Assembly: GCF_013111185.1 (NCBI RefSeq)
Contig: NZ_WVRE01000002.1
Coordinates: forward strand, 930,001 to 994,000
DNA length: 64,000 nt
Reading direction: 5' to 3'
Source of the DNA: Ruegeria sp. HKCCD7303
GTDB taxonomy: Bacteria; Pseudomonadota; Alphaproteobacteria; Rhodobacterales; Rhodobacteraceae
Of this stretch, positions 42,488 to 52,436 are shown one piece after another. Under the pieces are notes generated by a model. The model saw only the letters and a program-made list of their open reading frames with translations. It had not been told where the DNA came from and did not search any database. The position numbers and the translations under genes were made by a program. Position 1 is the stretch's first letter. Each line of letters opens with the position of its first letter.

Positions 42488-43303
42488 GGTGCTGTCAGAC
42501 GAATTCGAACCAGTCTCAGTTTGCTGCGGAAACCGCGGACCTATCCGGAACAAAGTTGACGCCACTCGCTAAGAGCGGCGGCGCGGGTCAGCTTGAAGGT
42601 GTCTCGACTGGCTAGCGATCTTTCCTGGTTGAAGTGGTTGTAGACAGAGGAAAGGACGGAGGCGAATTTCTGTAGACTTCGCATGCGCCTGAAACGCTGC
42701 ATCGCGCGTTCGCGTCGTCGAAACCAGGTGCGAATTCTCGACGCGGTTTTTGAGCCACCTGCCCGTCTGCTGTTTTTCAAGCGCGCCCATTTCTCTGAGC
42801 GCAGCCTTGTAGGAAGCGAAGCGATCTGTGACGATCTCTTCGGCGCAACCGTGCCGCTTCATCAATTTCTTGAGGAATTTCAGTGCTGCGGCTTTGTTTC
42901 GACGCTTCGTAACGACGGCCTCAAGCACCTCACCTTCGTGATCAACGGCCCGCCAAAGATAATGCCGCTTGCCATTCACTTTCACAAAGACCTCGTCCAC
43001 GTGCCACTTCCATTTGGAGAAGGCGCGCAGGTGCTGAACACGCTTTCTTCGGATCTTTGATGCAAACATCGGGCCAAACCTGTTCCACCAATATCGGACA
43101 GTTTCGTGGCTTACGTCGATGCCTCGCTCATGCAGCAGATCTTCGACATTCCGAAGCGAGAGCGGAAATCGGAAGTACAGCATCACCGCAAGGCGGATGA
43201 CCTCGGGACTGGTTTTGAAGTATTTGAAAGAGACAGGTCTGGTCATGGGCAAATGCTACGCAACCGCCCTGCCCCGCTCAAGCAAAGTTCTTCTGACAAA
43301 ACC
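42488..43303 (-). mobile_element. Full-length IS6-like insertion sequence, frameshifted copy
   Basis: An 816-bp element bounded by GGTGCTGTCAGACGAATTC at one end and the imperfect inverted GGTTTTGTCAGAAGAAC at the other. It contains one transposase frame on the minus strand, disrupted near 42725. The flanking 8-mers (TGAGTGGC and ATTCTGGC) are not direct repeats, so no target duplication remains. Confidence 0.85.
42541..43252 (-). pseudogene. IS6-family transposase with frameshift
   Basis: Residues 1-~175 read normally (MPMTRPVSFKYFKTSPE, then KWHVDEVFVKVNGKRHYLWRA with the first catalytic Asp and IVTDRFASYKAAL with the second). After VENSH the frame shifts; compared with the intact copy two bases are missing around 42722-42732 (CGTCGAAACCAGG versus CGTCGGAACGGCGAG). 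The remaining C-terminal part (RRRERAMQRFRRMRSLQKF to the end) continues in another frame to 42541. The enzyme should be inactive. Confidence 0.88.
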
Positions 43304-45366: not shown

Positions 45367-45647
45367 GCGCGCAGCTACTGAACACGCTTTCTTCGGATCT
45401 CAGCAGCAAACATCGGACCGAACCTATTCCACCAGTAGCGGACAGTTTCATGGCTGACATCGATCCCGCGTTCGTGAAGTAAGTCTTCGACATTTCGAAG
45501 CGAAAGCGGGAAACGGATGTACAGCTTCACAGCAAGGCGGATGATTTCGGGACTGGTTTTGAAGTACTTGAAAGAGGTAGGTTTGGTCATGGGCAAAAGC
45601 TACGCAACCGCCCTGCCCTGCTCAAGCCAAGTTCTTCTGACAAAACC
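45367..45647 (-). mobile_element. IS6-like fragment with transposase N-terminus
   Basis: The right end (CTGACAAAACC at 45637-45647) and the first ~73 codons of the transposase (MPMTKPTSFKYFKTSPE to EIRRKRVQ; 45378-45596) are conserved, after which homology stops abruptly at ~45367. The N-terminal helix-turn-helix part is intact but the catalytic domain is missing. Confidence 0.82.
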
Positions 45648-45670: not shown

Positions 45671-45919
45671 TCATGGCCCGTGTCTAGAAGCGAAGTACTT
45701 AAGCGCCTTGGTCGGCGTTTCGATCTGGGCATAGTCGGTCTCAGGTATCGACACGCCTAAGCGCGCGTGCAGGGCCGTCACAAGGTTCAGAATATCCATC
45801 GAGTCGAGTTCCAGATCATCTTGCAGATGGTCATCATCAGACACATCCGCCGGTTCTATGTCCGGCGCGATTTTGTGGATTTCCTCCAGAAAAGCCTGTC
45901 TAATCTCACTATCGTTCAT
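45671..45919 (-). CDS. Acyl carrier protein in a 2-oxoacid dehydrogenase operon
   Basis: An 82-residue acidic helical protein. The motif DDLELDSMDILNLV contains the serine (near 40) that would take 4'-phosphopantetheine. The rest (MNDSEIRQAFLEEIHKIAPDIE and PTKALKYFASR) fits ACP helices. It overlaps the E2 gene by 4 bp (ATGA), so coupling is tight. An ACP is not a standard partner of a 2-oxoacid dehydrogenase, so it may accept an acyl group made by this complex or by the AcsA-like ligase. Confidence 0.85.
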   Translation of the reverse strand: MNDSEIRQAFLEEIHKIAPDIEPADVSDDDHLQDDLELDSMDILNLVTALHARLGVSIPETDYAQIETPTKALKYFASRHGP

Positions 45920-47082
45920 AGTTCCTCCGGTCTCGAAAGCTTATCGGCCAACACTGTAAGGAATTTTGAGGCCTGCCTGCCGTCGCAAACGCGGTGGTCT
46001 GCAGAGAGCACAAAGTTGGTGACCTCACGGGGGGCAACTTTCTCCCCATCCACCCAAGGGCGGATTTGTGGGGCACCGACCGCCAAGAGGGCGACCTGAG
46101 GAGGGAAAATCACTCCCGTCATGCTGTCGGCACCACTCTCACCAAGGCTGGAAATAGTGAGCGTTCCGCTGGTCAGTTCTGAACTACGCAATCGTCCAGA
46201 ACGAGCACGGGTCACCAGATCACGCATCCCTTCCATGACCTCCTCAAGGGACATACGGTCTGCATTGAGGAGCGCTGGGGCGACCAGCCCGCCGCCACGG
46301 AGTGCGATGGCGACTCCTGTATTGATCTCGCTAGAGGGGACAAATTCTCCATTCACAATATGACCGTTCAGCGATTTGACGGCCTGCGCTGCGAGGGCGG
46401 CGGCCTTCACGATGGCCGCGCCGAGCAATATCCGTTCTGCCGGGGGCCGGTCCTTGTTGCGAGCGGCCAGCCATTCAGATAGGCCCTGAGTTTCGATCGT
46501 GTGCGAGACGTAGAAATGTGGAATTTCCTGCTTTGCGCGCGTCATCGCTGCGGCAACCGCCTTGCGCATTTCGGATAGGCCGTCCGTGGCTTGTTTGGAA
46601 CTGGCCGCGTTTTTCGCGAAGATCTCGACATCGGCCAAAACAACTGCCCCATCCGGGCCGCCGCCTCGGAGTTCAGACAGCTTCAGGCCAGCATGTCGTG
46701 CTGCAACGCGGGCCGCCGGGCTGGCTGCCACAACTGCCGTCGGTCTGGGCGGCGTGGCCGAGACCTTTTGCACATCAGGGCCAAGCGATGGAATGTATGG
46801 AGGCGCAGTGTCGGCCGGGTCTGGCAAAACCGCTGACACTTCCGGCGTCTCCTCTCCTATACGGGCTAGCGGCTCTCCCACAGGAACGGTTTGACCGACT
46901 TGCGCCAGTAATTCTGAGACGTCCCCGGCTTCAAAGCTCTCGATTTCTATGGCGCCTTTCTGTGTCTCTACCACGGCGACGACATCCCCCCGGTGCACCT
47001 CGTCCCCTGGCTGAATCAACCACTCGACCAACGTACCGGCCTCCATGTCCGCACCGAGCGAGGGCATCCGAAAGATACTCAT
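45916..47082 (-). CDS. 2-oxoacid dehydrogenase E2 (dihydrolipoamide acyltransferase)
   Basis: A 388-residue E2: one lipoyl domain (1-75) with the lipoylated lysine in VVETQKGAIEIES; a Pro/Ala linker; a peripheral-subunit binding domain (about 125-160, ASPAARVAARHAG and LRGGGPDGAVVLADV); and a catalytic domain ending in LSADHRVCDGRQASKF with the active-site His and Asp. Acyl specificity (acetyl, branched-chain or acetoin-derived) cannot be told. It starts 1 bp after the E1 gene. No E3 gene is in the window, so a housekeeping lipoamide dehydrogenase would be used. Confidence 0.9.
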   Translation of the reverse strand: MSIFRMPSLGADMEAGTLVEWLIQPGDEVHRGDVVAVVETQKGAIEIESFEAGDVSELLAQVGQTVPVGEPLARIGEETPEVSAVLPDPADTAPPYIPSLGPDVQKVSATPPRPTAVVAASPAARVAARHAGLKLSELRGGGPDGAVVLADVEIFAKNAASSKQATDGLSEMRKAVAAAMTRAKQEIPHFYVSHTIETQGLSEWLAARNKDRPPAERILLGAAIVKAAALAAQAVKSLNGHIVNGEFVPSSEINTGVAIALRGGGLVAPALLNADRMSLEEVMEGMRDLVTRARSGRLRSSELTSGTLTISSLGESGADSMTGVIFPPQVALLAVGAPQIRPWVDGEKVAPREVTNFVLSADHRVCDGRQASKFLTVLADKLSRPEEL

Positions 47083-47083
47083 G

Positions 47084-49078
47084 TCAGCTTTGCCCCATCA
47101 CACTTTTGGCCGCCGCGACAATCGCCGGAACCTGCGGTATCGAGGCGTCTTCCAGATGTTTCGGGTAAGGGATCGGAACTTCTTCCGAACACACCCTTCC
47201 AACTGGGGCATCGAGCGTCCAAAAGACCTGTTCGGTGATCCGGGCCGAGATTTCAGCTGCCAGCGAGCCGCTGCGCCATCCTTCGTCAACAATGACGGCG
47301 CGGCGCGTCCGGGCAACCGATCCCATGATTGTTTCGTCGTCAAGCGGACGTAGCGAGCGCAGGTCGATGACTTCAGCGCCAATCCCTTCTGAGGCAAGCG
47401 AATTTGCCGCCTCTAATGTCTTGTGGAGCGACCCGCCATAGGTAATCAGCGTCAGGTCTTTGCCCGGCCTGCGAATAGCTGCGCGGGAAATGTCGACAGG
47501 GCCTGCGCCCGAGTCGATTTGACCGCTCAGATTGTAGAGCATAACGTTTTCGAAGATCAGGACTGGATCGGGATCCTGCAGAGCGGTCCAAAGCATGCCG
47601 CGCGCATCTTCCAGCGTCGCAGGCGCGAGGACCTTAAGTCCCGGAATATGAGCGTACCAACCTTCAAGGCTACGGGAATGCTGGGCCGCGAGTTGCTTGC
47701 CCGCCCCGGTCGCCATACGGATGACCACCGGTACGCCGAACTGCCCTCCGGACATGTGCCGGAGGGTGGCTGCAGTGTTCAAAATCTGGTCGAGTGCCAA
47801 AAGGCTGAAGTTGACGGTCATCAGTTCAACGATGGGGCGCATCCCGGCACATGCAGCGCCGATCCCAGCCCCGGTGAAGCCTGACTCGGAAAGCGGCGTG
47901 TCACGCAACCTGTCCGCGCCGAATTTGTCCATCAGACCTTTGGAGACGGCATAGCATCCGCCATATGCACCGACGTCCTCGCCCATGAGGAAGACACGGG
48001 GATCGCGAGTCATGGCGTCGGAAATCGCGGCCCTAACGGCTTCGCGATAGGTCGTCTCGACCAGCTCACCGGTAGGGGAAGAGGCCTCAACAGTTGTTGC
48101 GGATGGCGCCATTACGTCCTTAGTTAACGACGACACAGGCTCCCAGGTTCCGGCCTCGGAAAAGGCTACGGCTTCGTCGATTTCGGCATCGGCTTGCTTT
48201 TCGAACTCCCGGATGTCTTCTTCGTGGATCAGCCTATTCTCTATGAGCCATGACTGGAAGCGCAGAATTGGCCCCTTTTTACGCCATTCCTCAACTTCGT
48301 CATTTGGTCGGTAAAGTTGGGCATCAAACATCGAATGCGCCCGGAAACGGTAAGTTCTACATTCGAGAAAGACTGGCTTTCCCGTTTCGCGGATTTCCTG
48401 CAGCGCCTGTGTTGCGGCCACTTCCACCGCGACAATGTCCATGCCATCGACCACACGCGCCTCGATCCCATAAGCGGCGGCCTTGCGGCTGACATCGGTC
48501 TCAGACTCGGAGCGAGCCAGGGCCGTTCCCATTGCGTAGCCATTGTTTTCGCAAACAAAAAGAACAGGTAGCCGCCACAGTACCGCGAGGTTAAGAGTCT
48601 CGTGGAACTCGCCCTCGGCCACGGCGCCTTCGCCAAAGAAGCAGGCCGTCACGCCCGTGTCGCCGCGCATCCGTTCGGCTAGAGCCAGCCCCGCAGCCAA
48701 GGGGAGACCGCCACCGACAATGGCATTGCCGCCATAGAAGCTCGTGGCGGCGTCAAACAGGTGCATCGAACCTCCGCGTCCGCCCGAGCAGCCTTCGGCC
48801 TTGCCATACATTTCGGCCATGACCGAGGACATTGAGACGCCGCGCATCAGCGCATGTCCGTGTTCTCGGTACGTGGCGACGACGCGATCTTTGTCCGACA
48901 AGAGCGGGATAATCCCAGCGGCAATCGCTTCCTCTCCATCATAGAGGTGCAGGAAGCCGCGAATTTTTTCCTGAGTGTATAGCTCCGCACATTTGTCTTC
49001 GAAACGTCGGATACGGATCATGTCACTCAGCAAGCGTTTCACATGGTCGCGGTCCAGTCTTGGTTTGCTTGTGGTCAT
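47084..49078 (-). CDS. 2-oxoacid dehydrogenase E1, fused alpha and beta subunits
   Basis: A 664-residue thiamine-diphosphate enzyme. Residues ~1-320 are the alpha part ([19 protein letters not shown]; ThDP motif [44 protein letters not shown]). After a short linker, residues ~340-664 are the beta part ([53 protein letters not shown]). Most alphaproteobacterial relatives are two genes; the fusion is unusual but known from other 2-oxoacid dehydrogenases. It overlaps acsA by 4 bp. Confidence 0.9.
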
Positions 49079-50814
49079 TTCTCGTCCGTCTCCAATGTAG
49101 AGATGTCACCTTCTGGCAGACCAAGTTCGCGCGCCTTCAAAAGGCGGCGCATGATCTTGCCAGAGCGGGTCTTGGGAAGGGCATTTCGGAAAACGATCTC
49201 GCGGGGGGCCACAGCCGCTCCAAGCCGTTTGCGGGCAAGGCCGCGAATGTCGCGCTCTAGCTCCTCATCCGCGGTTTGGCCGGAATTCAGGGTCACGAAG
49301 GCTTTGACGATTTCGCCCGCTGTCTCGTCTGGAATACCAATCACAGCGGCCTCGGCGACGGCTTCATGCTCAATCAGCGCACTTTCAACCTCGAAGGGGC
49401 CGACCAGATGGCCCGACGTTTTGATTAGGTCATCGGCTCGACCGACGAACCAGAAATACCCATCACTGTCCCGCATCGCGAGATCGCCTGACAAGTACCA
49501 ACCATCATTGAAGCATTTTTCGTACCGCGCCTGTTCGTGAAGATAGTCCCGCATCATCGAGGGCCAGCCCGGTCGCAGAGCAAGCTCTCCTATCTCGCCA
49601 TCCGGTAATTCCCGCAAGCCACCGTTGTCTGGTTCCACAATGCCAGCAACAACGCCAGGCAGGGGTTTGCCCATCGATCCAGGCTTGATGTCATGCGCTC
49701 TAGTATTGGCAATCATGATGCCCCCGGTTTCTGTCTGCCACCAATTGTCGTGGAACGGACGACCGAATACCTCGTTGGACCAGACCACGGCTTCGGCGTT
49801 CAGAGGCTCACCGACGCTTGCAAGAAACTGCAGAGCACTGAAGTTGTACCCTCGTGCGGCCTCACTGCCAGCGCGCATCATCATGCGGATGGCTGTTGGG
49901 GCTGAATACCAGACCTCAACGCGTTCCCTTTCAACGATCCCATACCAGCGTTCGAGATTGAATTCTGCCTCGTCCACGATCATCGTCACGCGGTTCACCA
50001 GTGGTGAGATAATCCCGTAGGTCGTTCCGGTGACCCAGCCCGGGTCAGCGGTGCACCAGTAGGTCACGCCGGGCTGCAGTTCGAGCGCGTATCGACCCGA
50101 GAGCGCGTGGTGCTGAACTGCGCCATGCACGTGAACCGCACCTTTTGGCCTCCCGGTGGTACCCGAGGTGAAGTGAATCAATGCCGGGTCTTCCGTCTGT
50201 GTGTGGGCAGCCAGAAATTCTGTCGAGGCCTCTTGCAATGCCGGGGCCAGAGCGACGCAATCATCAGGAGCTTCGTCGCCAACGATGAGGACCAAACGCA
50301 GCGACGTCATTTCCTGACGCCACGATGCGATTTTGCGTTTGTAGAGTGATTTAGTCGTGACCAGAACATTGGCATCGCCGATTTCCATCCTGGTTCTCAG
50401 GGGTTCTGGCCCAAAGGCGGCAAAGAGTGGCGTAAAGACCATCCCGGCCTTTAAAGTGCCAAGGGCCGCAGCATAAAGCTCAGGCCGCCGCCCCATCGCG
50501 ACAAAGACGCGGTCCCCTTTTTGTTGTCCGTGGTCGTAGAGCAGATTTGCAAACCGCGACGACATGGCTGCGAGATCTCCATAGCTGAGCGTTTGCTGCG
50601 CTCCCTCCTTGGATAGCCAGATCAGGGCAGTATGGTCTCCATGCCCCTGCGCTACATGGCGATCGACAGCTTCAAACCCGATGTTGATCGAGCCATCTGG
50701 CAAACCTGTGAGAAGTCCGCGGCCAAGGTCGTTTGTCGGCTGCTCTAGGGCATCCGAGGTTGGTTGCCAACACGCAGCGGCGCGCTCTTCGGGTGATTTC
50801 CCAATGATGCTCAT
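49075..50814 (-). CDS. acsA: Acetyl-CoA synthetase-like AMP-forming ligase
   Basis: A 579-residue adenylate-forming enzyme. The P-loop is [20 protein letters not shown], the A5 region [14 protein letters not shown], hinge-domain [20 protein letters not shown], and the catalytic lysine lies in [14 protein letters not shown]. Length matches the shorter Bacillus AcsA type, not the ~650-residue Acs. It would activate acetate or a related short acid to the CoA ester. First gene of the operon with E1, E2 and ACP. Its upstream region is an IS6 fragment beginning ~70 bp away. Confidence 0.88.
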
Positions 50815-50863
50815 TGCTACATCCTCCCGCAGAAAGTCTGGTGGGGAGGTCTGGGGGAAAGCA

Positions 50864-50877
50864 ATGACTCAAATCAA
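50864..50877 (-). promoter_or_regulatory. Weak Fnr-type box before acsA operon (8/10)
   Basis: ATGAC-TCAA-ATCAA on the plus strand (TTGAT-TTGA-GTCAT facing acsA), 50 bp before the start codon, with an IS6 fragment starting 9 bp upstream. Confidence 0.4.
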
Positions 50878-50885
50878 AGCGCGCA

Positions 50886-51100
50886 ATATAGCGGACGGCT
50901 TCATGGCTGACATCGATCCCGCGCTCGTGCAGCAGATCTTCGACATTTCGAAGCGAGAGCGGAAATCGGATGTACAGAATCACCGCAAGGCGGATGATCT
51001 CAGGGCTAGTTTTGAAGTACTTTAAGGAGGCAGGTTTGGTCATGTCCGAAGGCTATGCAACCGCCCTGCCCCGCTCAAGCAAAGTTCTTCTGACAAGACC
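50886..51100 (-). mobile_element. IS6-like fragment upstream of acsA
   Basis: The right end CTGACAAGACC (51090-51100) and the transposase N-terminus (MTKPASLKYFKTSPE to VSHEAVRY; roughly 50890-51043) are retained; the catalytic part is gone. Homology stops close to the acsA promoter, so the fragment now forms the upstream flank of the operon. Confidence 0.8.
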
Positions 51101-51618: not shown

Positions 51619-52436
51619 GGTGCTGTCAGACGAATTCTAGCTAGTCTCAGTTTGCCGCTGAAACTGCGAAGCTATTCGGAACAAAGTTGACGCCACTCGG
51701 CAAGAGCAGCGGTGCGTGTCAGCTTGAAGGAGTCTCGGCTGCTGAGCGATCTTTCCTGATTGAAGTGGTTGTAGACGCAGGAATGGACGGAAGCGAACTT
51801 CTGCAAACTTCGGATGCGCCTGAAACGTTGCATCGCGCGTTCGCGTCGTCGGAACGGCGAGTGCGAATTCTCAACGCAGTTATTGAGCCACCTGCCCGTC
51901 TGCTGTTTTTCGATAGCGCCAAGCTCTCTGAGAGCGGCCCGGTACGATGCGAAGCGATCCGTGACGAAGTTGTTCGCTTTTCCGTGCCGCTTCATCAATT
52001 TCTTGAGGAATTTCAGTGCTGCAGCTCTGTTTCGACGTTTGGTGACAACGGCTTCCAGCACTTCGCCCTCATGATCGACGGCCCGCCAAAGATAATGCCG
52101 CTTGCCACTCACCTTCACGAAAACCTCGTCCACATGCCACTTCCATTTGGAGTATGCTCTCAATTGCTGAACACGCTTTCTTCGGATTTCAGCAGCAAAC
52201 CTTGGGCCAAACCTGTTCCACCAATACCGGACAGTTTCGTGACTCACGTCTATGCCTCGCTCGTGCAACAAGTCTTCGACATTCCGAAGCGAGAGCGGGA
52301 AACGGATGTACAGCTTCACAGCAAGGCGGATGATCTCGGGGCTGGTTTTAAAGTACTTAAATGGCGACTGTTTAATCATGCGCGAAGGCTACGAGAGCAC
52401 CTTGCCCTGCTCAAGCAAAGTTATTCTGACAAGGCC
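51619..52436 (-). mobile_element. Full-length intact IS6-like insertion sequence
   Basis: An 818-bp element with left end GGTGCTGTCAGACGAATTC and right end TTATTCTGACAAGGCC, carrying one uninterrupted transposase. It has cut into an IS1182-type transposase gene, whose C-terminal remainder begins immediately at 52437. No 8-bp target duplication is visible (CTAAAAAT versus GCCAGGAA), compatible with later deletion or cointegrate formation. Confidence 0.88.
51672..52379 (-). CDS. IS6-family transposase, intact
   Basis: A 235-residue DDE transposase. N-terminal helix-turn-helix (LRNVEDLLHERGIDVSHETVRYWWNRFGP); catalytic residues Asp in KWHVDEVFVKV, Asp in FVTDRFASY and a probable Glu in SPFRRRERAMQRFR. 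Length is normal for IS6 (about 230-240). It is the only copy in the window that could supply transposase to the relics. Confidence 0.93.
   Translation of the reverse strand: MIKQSPFKYFKTSPEIIRLAVKLYIRFPLSLRNVEDLLHERGIDVSHETVRYWWNRFGPRFAAEIRRKRVQQLRAYSKWKWHVDEVFVKVSGKRHYLWRAVDHEGEVLEAVVTKRRNRAAALKFLKKLMKRHGKANNFVTDRFASYRAALRELGAIEKQQTGRWLNNCVENSHSPFRRRERAMQRFRRIRSLQKFASVHSCVYNHFNQERSLSSRDSFKLTRTAALAEWRQLCSE

Follow-up and report, generated by a model that had tools for sequence, protein, structure and literature searches.

Which acceptor takes the acyl group formed by a 2-oxoacid dehydrogenase whose genes are joined to a gene for an acyl carrier protein (ACP)? Textbook 2-oxoacid dehydrogenases end on coenzyme A (CoA). 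The question is raised by a four-gene cassette, encoding an acetate ligase, an E1, an E2 and an ACP, in a stretch of 64,000 nucleotides from Ruegeria sp. HKCCD7303 (contig NZ_WVRE01000002.1, positions 930,001 to 994,000), hereafter the window. We tentatively favor, at slightly below an even chance, the reading that the cassette loads acetyl groups under low oxygen by two routes, from pyruvate via E1 and E2 and from acetate via the ligase, with one ACP as the acceptor. A wider reading, possible although distinctly more doubtful, is that of a 2-oxoacid dehydrogenase of primary metabolism that has left CoA, whose E2, as an uncaged trimer, would serve a private ACP that is also fed by an acetate ligase, so that bacteria of several phyla would have protein-bound acetyl groups, separate from acetyl-CoA, at low oxygen. 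The genes and domains on which both readings rest are as follows.

49075-50814, minus strand: AcsA, AMP-forming acetate ligase, first gene of the cassette (579 aa; NF003313, 842.6 bits, cut-off 729)
47084-49078, minus strand: E1, fused alpha-beta, pyruvate-dehydrogenase-type (664 aa; TIGR03182 and NF006667 above cut-off on a single chain)
45916-47082, minus strand: E2 (388 aa; Pfam lipoyl, E3-binding and catalytic domains; without the C-terminal H7 knob)
about 46858-47073, minus strand: lipoyl domain of E2 (Pfam)
about 46624-46731, minus strand: E3-binding domain of E2 (Pfam)
about 45919-46584, minus strand: catalytic domain of E2 (Pfam)
45671-45919, minus strand: dedicated ACP with an intact DSMD site (82 aa; PF00550, 36.4 bits)

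The initial annotation had described four tightly joined genes, and its coordinates and junctions were reproduced: AcsA and E1 overlap by 4 bases, E1 and E2 are separated by 1 base, and E2 and ACP overlap by 4 bases. The E1 chain scored 438.3 against TIGR03182 (cut-off 393.85) and 406.6 against NF006667 (cut-off 321), and E1 and AcsA are both members of curated families specific for C2 substrates. E2 did not reach the cut-off of any of the 21 NCBIfam models listed, the best being TIGR01349 (220.9 versus 445). Likewise, the ACP fell below the cut-off of all 14 models listed, including those of the housekeeping AcpP, TIGR00517 (40.5 versus 70.45) and PRK00982 (43.2 versus 71). Its family marks, A18-P19, D39-S40-x-D42 and P59-E60-x-D62-Y63, were invariant in 18 aligned members, some of which read DSID or DSLD at the site; the claim of an ACP with an intact phosphopantetheine site beside E2 is borne out. 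The cassette is an extra set, because a second pyruvate dehydrogenase (PDH)-like cluster, whose E1 alpha and E1 beta are 41% and 45% identical to those of the cassette, is present elsewhere in the same genome (locus L003).

To what extent the ACP belongs to the cassette was examined with a scan of a species-genome collection by an E1-beta alignment, which is blind to ACPs; the best 80 of at least 591 relatives were used, and these loci were then searched with profiles of five domains. An ACP was found behind E2 in 69 of the 80 loci. Among the other 11, nine lie on contigs that stop within 1104 bases past E1, and two are degenerate copies, one without cassette AcsA or E1 alpha and with E2 reduced to a scrap (L081), the other with AcsA and E1 alpha in pieces and without E2 (L110). 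Every locus with a whole cassette and enough contig therefore carried the ACP (69/69), and a possible ACP start codon overlapped the E2 stop codon by 4 bases in 67 of them (60 by the profile's own start). The initial annotation had named a lack of the ACP in other copies as grounds for dropping its reading, and these loci do not show such a lack. AcsA stood upstream in 75 of the 80 loci; of the five without it, three start inside the cassette (L098, L099 and L129), one is the degenerate L081, and one (L076) has another gene in its place, described below. By record titles, the hosts include Alpha- and Betaproteobacteria, Streptomyces, Lentzea, Arthrobacter, Citricoccus and Pseudanabaena, as well as an Anaerolinea bin, an acidobacterial bin, Binatota and a Desulfuromonadaceae bin, although bins may mislabel the host; the cassette is found in bacteria of several phyla. 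In one further copy, on a plasmid of Leisingera aquaemixtae R2C4 (L035:8-2751), the E1 and E2 genes are in pieces and the ACP reading frame is whole.

The absence of E3 from the cassette, also pointed out in the initial annotation, is general, since 1 of 87 loci matched a query made of the N-terminal 196 residues of E. coli Lpd; E2 keeps its E3-binding domain, so a housekeeping E3 can serve. The single-chain E1, by contrast, is true of the window and does not define the system: E1 was fused in 52 of the 80 loci, encoded by two whole genes in 25, and broken or without E1 alpha in 3. We therefore ruled out the fusion as a trait of the system.

Whole-genome counts gave the same picture. In 198 genomes of the window's family, the ACP search alone (E ≤ 1e-12) found 20 genomes and the E1 search (E ≤ 1e-200) found 22, and the three E1 genomes absent from the ACP list (G055, G079 and G193) do carry an ACP behind E2. 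The ACP is thus present in every E1-bearing genome (22/22); conversely, E1 is present in 22 of the 23 genomes that yielded an ACP. In the window's genus, E1 was found in 2 of 19 genomes searched, both with the ACP. Among 398 Pseudomonadota genomes, 16 had an ACP match at E ≤ 1e-13, located next to E2 in 14 of them but not in the two with the weakest matches, and in Streptomyces E2 adjoined an ACP in at least 15 of 150 genomes (15 of the 30 best loci examined). On these counts, the AcsA-E1-E2-ACP arrangement is conserved far more than chance would give.

The exceptions in the family concern which enzyme the ACP accompanies. It adjoins E2 in 21 of the 22 E1-bearing genomes; in the remaining one, G062, E1 and E2 lie on one contig with no ACP within 7 kb behind them, and a second contig carries AcsA and ACP with a 4-base overlap. 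In G125, AcsA and ACP are present and cassette E1 was not found in the whole genome at E ≤ 1e-200 (the genome is 98% complete); E2 was searched within the 18 kb of L039, the locus that carries this pair. In both genomes the ACP goes with AcsA, which argues that AcsA loads it, and the fixed place of the ACP behind E2 elsewhere argues that E2 loads it too. The link of the ACP to AcsA is at least as tight as its link to E2. An AcsA tree, in which both genomes are nested among the cassette AcsAs with supports that are not starred, had raised two independent losses of E1 and E2; this was ruled out, as G062 has E1 and E2 on another contig, its operon being split, which leaves G125 as the one apparent loss.

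To see how the cassette E2 differs from the usual enzyme, we compared residues in an alignment of 69 cassette E2s and 31 canonical E2s. The C-terminal tail after the last conserved proline was 3 or 4 residues long in all 69 cassette E2s and 5 to 8 in all 31 canonical ones; the former end before the position of the C-terminal helix H7 (69/69), while the latter continue (31/31). In the literature, H7 is described as the knob-and-socket contact between trimers, and its displacement leaves bare trimers in the actinobacterial E2p. An arginine in helix H2 was present in 0/69 cassette and 31/31 canonical E2s, an extra loop residue before Gly-Leu in 69/69 (Arg in 67) and 0/31, and Asn566 in 1/69 and 31/31. 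The catalytic His was kept throughout (69/69 and 31/31). We infer from these differences that the cassette E2 may be a free trimer without a cage. An AlphaFold model of the window's E2 had a mean pLDDT of 87, and in a fold search this predicted structure matched ordinary E2 catalytic domains, which is uninformative on the acceptor.

AcsA was compared in the same manner, in 73 cassette proteins with 10 canonical long Acs proteins as references. Positions T262, V334 and W359 were identical in 73/73 and V261 in 68/73; in Acs enzymes these positions form the acetate pocket. The CoA-site residues of AcsA were considered as a sign of ACP use and gave no pointer either way, with the Arg584 equivalent present and a basic patch, Y-[RK]-R-K, conserved.

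A low-oxygen role, as proposed in the initial annotation, was supported by the promoter regions. The strict FNR/FixK palindrome, TTGA[TC]N4[AG]TCAA, was sought in the 350 bases before AcsA in the 69 loci where AcsA is complete and sequence ahead of it is available, and it occurred in 19 of them, versus 0.7 expected from the rate elsewhere in the same loci, which are related to each other.

Taken together, two C2 suppliers, a single dedicated carrier and an E2 without the cage contact point to acetyl-ACP as the product. In the scheme that we favor, E1 would decarboxylate pyruvate and acetylate the lipoyl arm of E2. The catalytic domain of E2, having given up the cage contact and altered the loop next to its active site, would move the acetyl group onto the ACP's phosphopantetheine arm, and a housekeeping E3 would reoxidize the lipoyl arm. 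AcsA would use ATP to activate acetate and pass it to the same ACP. The acetyl-ACP so formed would supply acetyl groups independently of CoA, to be drawn on when low oxygen is sensed by regulators of the FNR/FixK type. That the group is acetyl, and that both E2 and AcsA transfer it, we infer; both loaders, as proposed in the initial annotation, are plausible, and feeding of the ACP by E2 or the ligase is the best reading but unproven. If true, a second acetyl currency would exist in some bacteria for times of low oxygen or dormancy, the retention of a specialized ACP beside E2 from Streptomyces to Rhodobacterales would be explained, and this E2 would be an example of an enzyme that lost its cage as its acceptor changed.

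Several observations weigh against this scheme. An arginine mapped to Arg357 of the fungal C. thermophilum E2 is retained in 68 of the 69 cassette E2s; PMC8626477 names Arg357 as a CoA contact, and the mapping through human numbering is our own. The residue aligned with Arg584 of Salmonella Acs is likewise present in 73/73 AcsAs, and with both arginines kept, CoA may still be used. A loss of CoA binding in E2, which we had considered, is unsupported: R/K512 and Asn566 are changed and the Arg357 equivalent is kept, as judged from a partial list of CoA contacts. According to PMC8421416, bacterial E2s probably lack the mammalian CoA-driven gate, so that the loop insertion means less, and the CoA-side opening of the cube is 30-40 Å wide, so that the cage alone would not exclude an ACP. 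The strict box was not found before AcsA in 50 of the 69 loci. No candidate consumer of acetyl-ACP recurred in most of 100 neighborhoods. In Alkalilacustris brevis (L076:309-2777), a gene of the pyruvate phosphate dikinase (PPDK)/phosphoenolpyruvate (PEP)-synthase type (PF01326) takes the place of AcsA and overlaps E1 by 4 bases. Finally, as the loci are the best 80 of at least 591, more remote copies lie outside the count.

The main rival follows from the first of these points. It holds that AcsA and E1-E2 are ordinary low-oxygen isoenzymes that make acetyl-CoA, and that AcsA or E2 has the ACP as a subunit with an accessory or regulatory role. The retained CoA-contact arginines of both enzymes favor it, as does the score of AcsA above the cut-off of a family named acetate--CoA ligase. 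It leaves unexplained, however, why an ACP with an invariant phosphopantetheine site stands in all 69 whole-cassette loci, and why E2 has lost its cage contact and gained a loop residue, and we consider it unlikely.

An improbable alternative is a closed ATP shuttle, in which E2 acetylates the ACP and AcsA runs in reverse, turning acetyl-ACP, AMP and pyrophosphate into acetate and ATP during oxygen-poor fermentation. Such a shuttle would account for a single carrier common to AcsA and E2 with no outside consumer conserved, and genes of the PPDK/PEP-synthase type, whose products act on AMP as well, were found close to 11 of 100 copies; yet G125, with AcsA and ACP and without the cassette E1, has no evident acetyl donor, and AMP-forming ligases seldom run in reverse. 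The idea that the ACP carries octanoate for the LipB/LipA modification of the cassette E2 is very improbable, for although the ACP is nearly always beside this lipoate-requiring E2 and a LipB-like octanoyltransferase stretch occurs in 1 of 87 loci (L098, a 4.2 kb contig of the Desulfuromonadaceae bin), the other 86 had no match to E. coli LipA, LipB or AcpS (E ≤ 1e-5), G125 retains the ACP beside AcsA without having cassette E1, and AcsA would be unneeded.

Acetyl loading of an ACP by an E2 can also be set against known systems. The initial annotation called the cassette its strongest candidate for an undescribed system, but E1/E2 sets with an ACP have a precedent in antibiotic pathways. According to PMC6335953, a glycolyl (C2) unit is formed and attached by QncN, QncL and QncM, and the same is proposed for SclQ1-4; the proteins concerned are two E1-like subunits, a lipoyl acyltransferase and an ACP. 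PMC7570522 gives the same kind of C2 loading for NapB and NapD with the ACP NapC. The sets for naphthyridinomycin (NapB-NapC-NapD), quinocarcin (QncN-QncL-QncM) and scleric acid (SclQ1-4) share with the cassette the PDH/transketolase-like E1 parts, the E2-type lipoyl acyltransferase and the small dedicated ACP, and the joint presence of E1-like, lipoyl-E2 and ACP genes is common to all of them. They differ in that the Nap, Qnc and Scl sets turn a ketose phosphate into a glycolyl unit for a peptide synthetase in antibiotic pathways, whereas the cassette has a pyruvate-type E1 and an acetate ligase and lies in a stress and low-oxygen island; the likeness is one of described parts. An acetate ligase is not named in the portions of the set descriptions available. 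A Streptomyces search aimed at the tails of NapD, QncL and SclQ4 returned the cassette E2-ACP in 15 of 30 loci, not those clusters. By analogy, E2-type transfer of a C2 unit to an ACP has precedent, of which the cassette appears to be a primary-metabolism variant. A full-text search, with thin coverage of subscription journals, found no published description of the cassette, and the accessible portion of PMC6201568, which covers ppsA and other FixK2 targets, does not include it. The earlier reading of the cassette was partly supported overall.

With the canonical pyruvate dehydrogenase complex, the cassette shares a PDH-type E1 alpha-beta, the lipoyl and E3-binding domains and the DHR-xx-DG motif; it differs in an E2 under all listed cut-offs, without the H7 knob and with a longer loop before Gly-Leu, and in an operon that includes an ACP and an acetate ligase with no adjoining E3 gene. 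With the AMP-forming acetyl-CoA synthetase AcsA of the PRK04319 type, it shares a whole-length family match and the acetate pocket, and the nearest solved chain to the cassette AcsA is 9g79. The cassette AcsA differs in being tied to an ACP, and among 60 Pseudomonadota genomes this AcsA type was above cut-off in three (G000, G243 and G246), all of which have the E2-ACP pair of the cassette.

The Dlt system consists of the ligase DltA, the carrier DltC and the MBOAT protein DltB, and the cassette resembles it in that an AMP-forming ligase is paired with a small carrier. A DltB-like MBOAT gene (142.6 bits, cut-off 375) stands next to AcsA-ACP in two genomes. In the window and the loci examined, a tblastn search with the MBOAT of L038 (E ≤ 1e-8) matched only L024, L038 and L039, L024 being part of L039. 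The MBOAT cluster (L038:506-7431, L039:1106-7198 and L219-L223) comprises E1 alpha, E1 beta, two cytochrome-like proteins, the DltB-like MBOAT and an SGNH-like protein, the cytochrome and SGNH likeness being judged by eye. It was found in 7 of 295 genomes searched, with a looser copy in an eighth (L224), and tblastn placed a Crp-type gene close to it in 5 of those 7. Its E1 alpha has a likely twin-arginine translocation signal (a weak PF10518 match in L038), suggesting that the E1 of this cluster may work outside the cytoplasm. Dlt-like export of acetyl groups was not retained beyond a lead, as the MBOAT cluster stood without AcsA-ACP in the 18-20 kb examined in 6 of 8 genomes.

The surroundings of the window's cassette bear on its regulation and origin. 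Three features flank the genes.

50864..50877, minus strand: putative FNR/FixK-like near-box TTGATTTGAGTCAT, differing from the strict pattern at one position and lying some 50 bases upstream of the AcsA start
45367..45643, minus strand: IS6-family transposase fragment downstream of the ACP, one copy of a direct repeat (open reading frame (ORF) 45375-45596; NF033587, 69 bits, whole-protein cut-off 125)
50820..51096, minus strand: IS6-family transposase fragment upstream of AcsA, the other copy of the direct repeat, 70% identical (ORF 50672-51043; NF033587, 44.9 bits, below cut-off)

The window's AcsA has no strict box upstream and only this near-box, which lies beside an IS6 fragment. In the window as a whole, 8 TTGAN6TCAA sites were counted versus 1.4 expected, and strict FNR/FixK-type palindromes lie at five positions (31970, 38699, 40788, 52984 and 55757). 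A scan of 20 ORFs in the 28-64 kb part of the window identified two universal stress proteins (Usp), two Hsp20 proteins, one thioredoxin and one flavodoxin, and it found no non-ribosomal peptide synthetase domain. The stretch looks like a low-oxygen island.

Neighboring genes were clustered in the 100 neighborhoods by crude ORF calling, with opposite-strand shadow ORFs excluded and names taken from Pfam on one member of each cluster. Apart from the PPDK/PEP-synthase type, the larger non-cassette clusters were a P-type ATPase (17), an ABC transporter (12), a Crp-type regulator (10), Hsp20 (9), class II glutamine amidotransferase (8), DUF2267 (8), Usp (7), PfkB (6) and polyhydroxybutyrate synthase (6).

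Four IS6-family transposase ORFs or fragments lie within 10 kb (42569-43252, 45375-45596, 50672-51043 and 51672-52379), and two of them bracket the cassette. Plasmid-borne copies were found in Leisingera, Cupriavidus, Burkholderia, Methylocystis, Rhodococcus, Sulfitobacter and Tropicibacter. Plasmid carriage and the IS6-family fragments around the window's copy suggest that the cassette is probably mobile. On the Leisingera plasmids (L028:19884-35117 and L035:3147-17067), the cassette lies in a stress island with genes for universal stress proteins, Hsp20, CBS, Crp/Fnr, MBL-fold and sulfite oxidase proteins. On the Rhodococcus plasmid pDK1 (L030:3466-30130), it lies amid ppsA and genes for a 1-phosphofructokinase family member, a dsRBD-fold protein, universal stress proteins and a sensor kinase, a neighborhood reminiscent of a DosR-type dormancy set.

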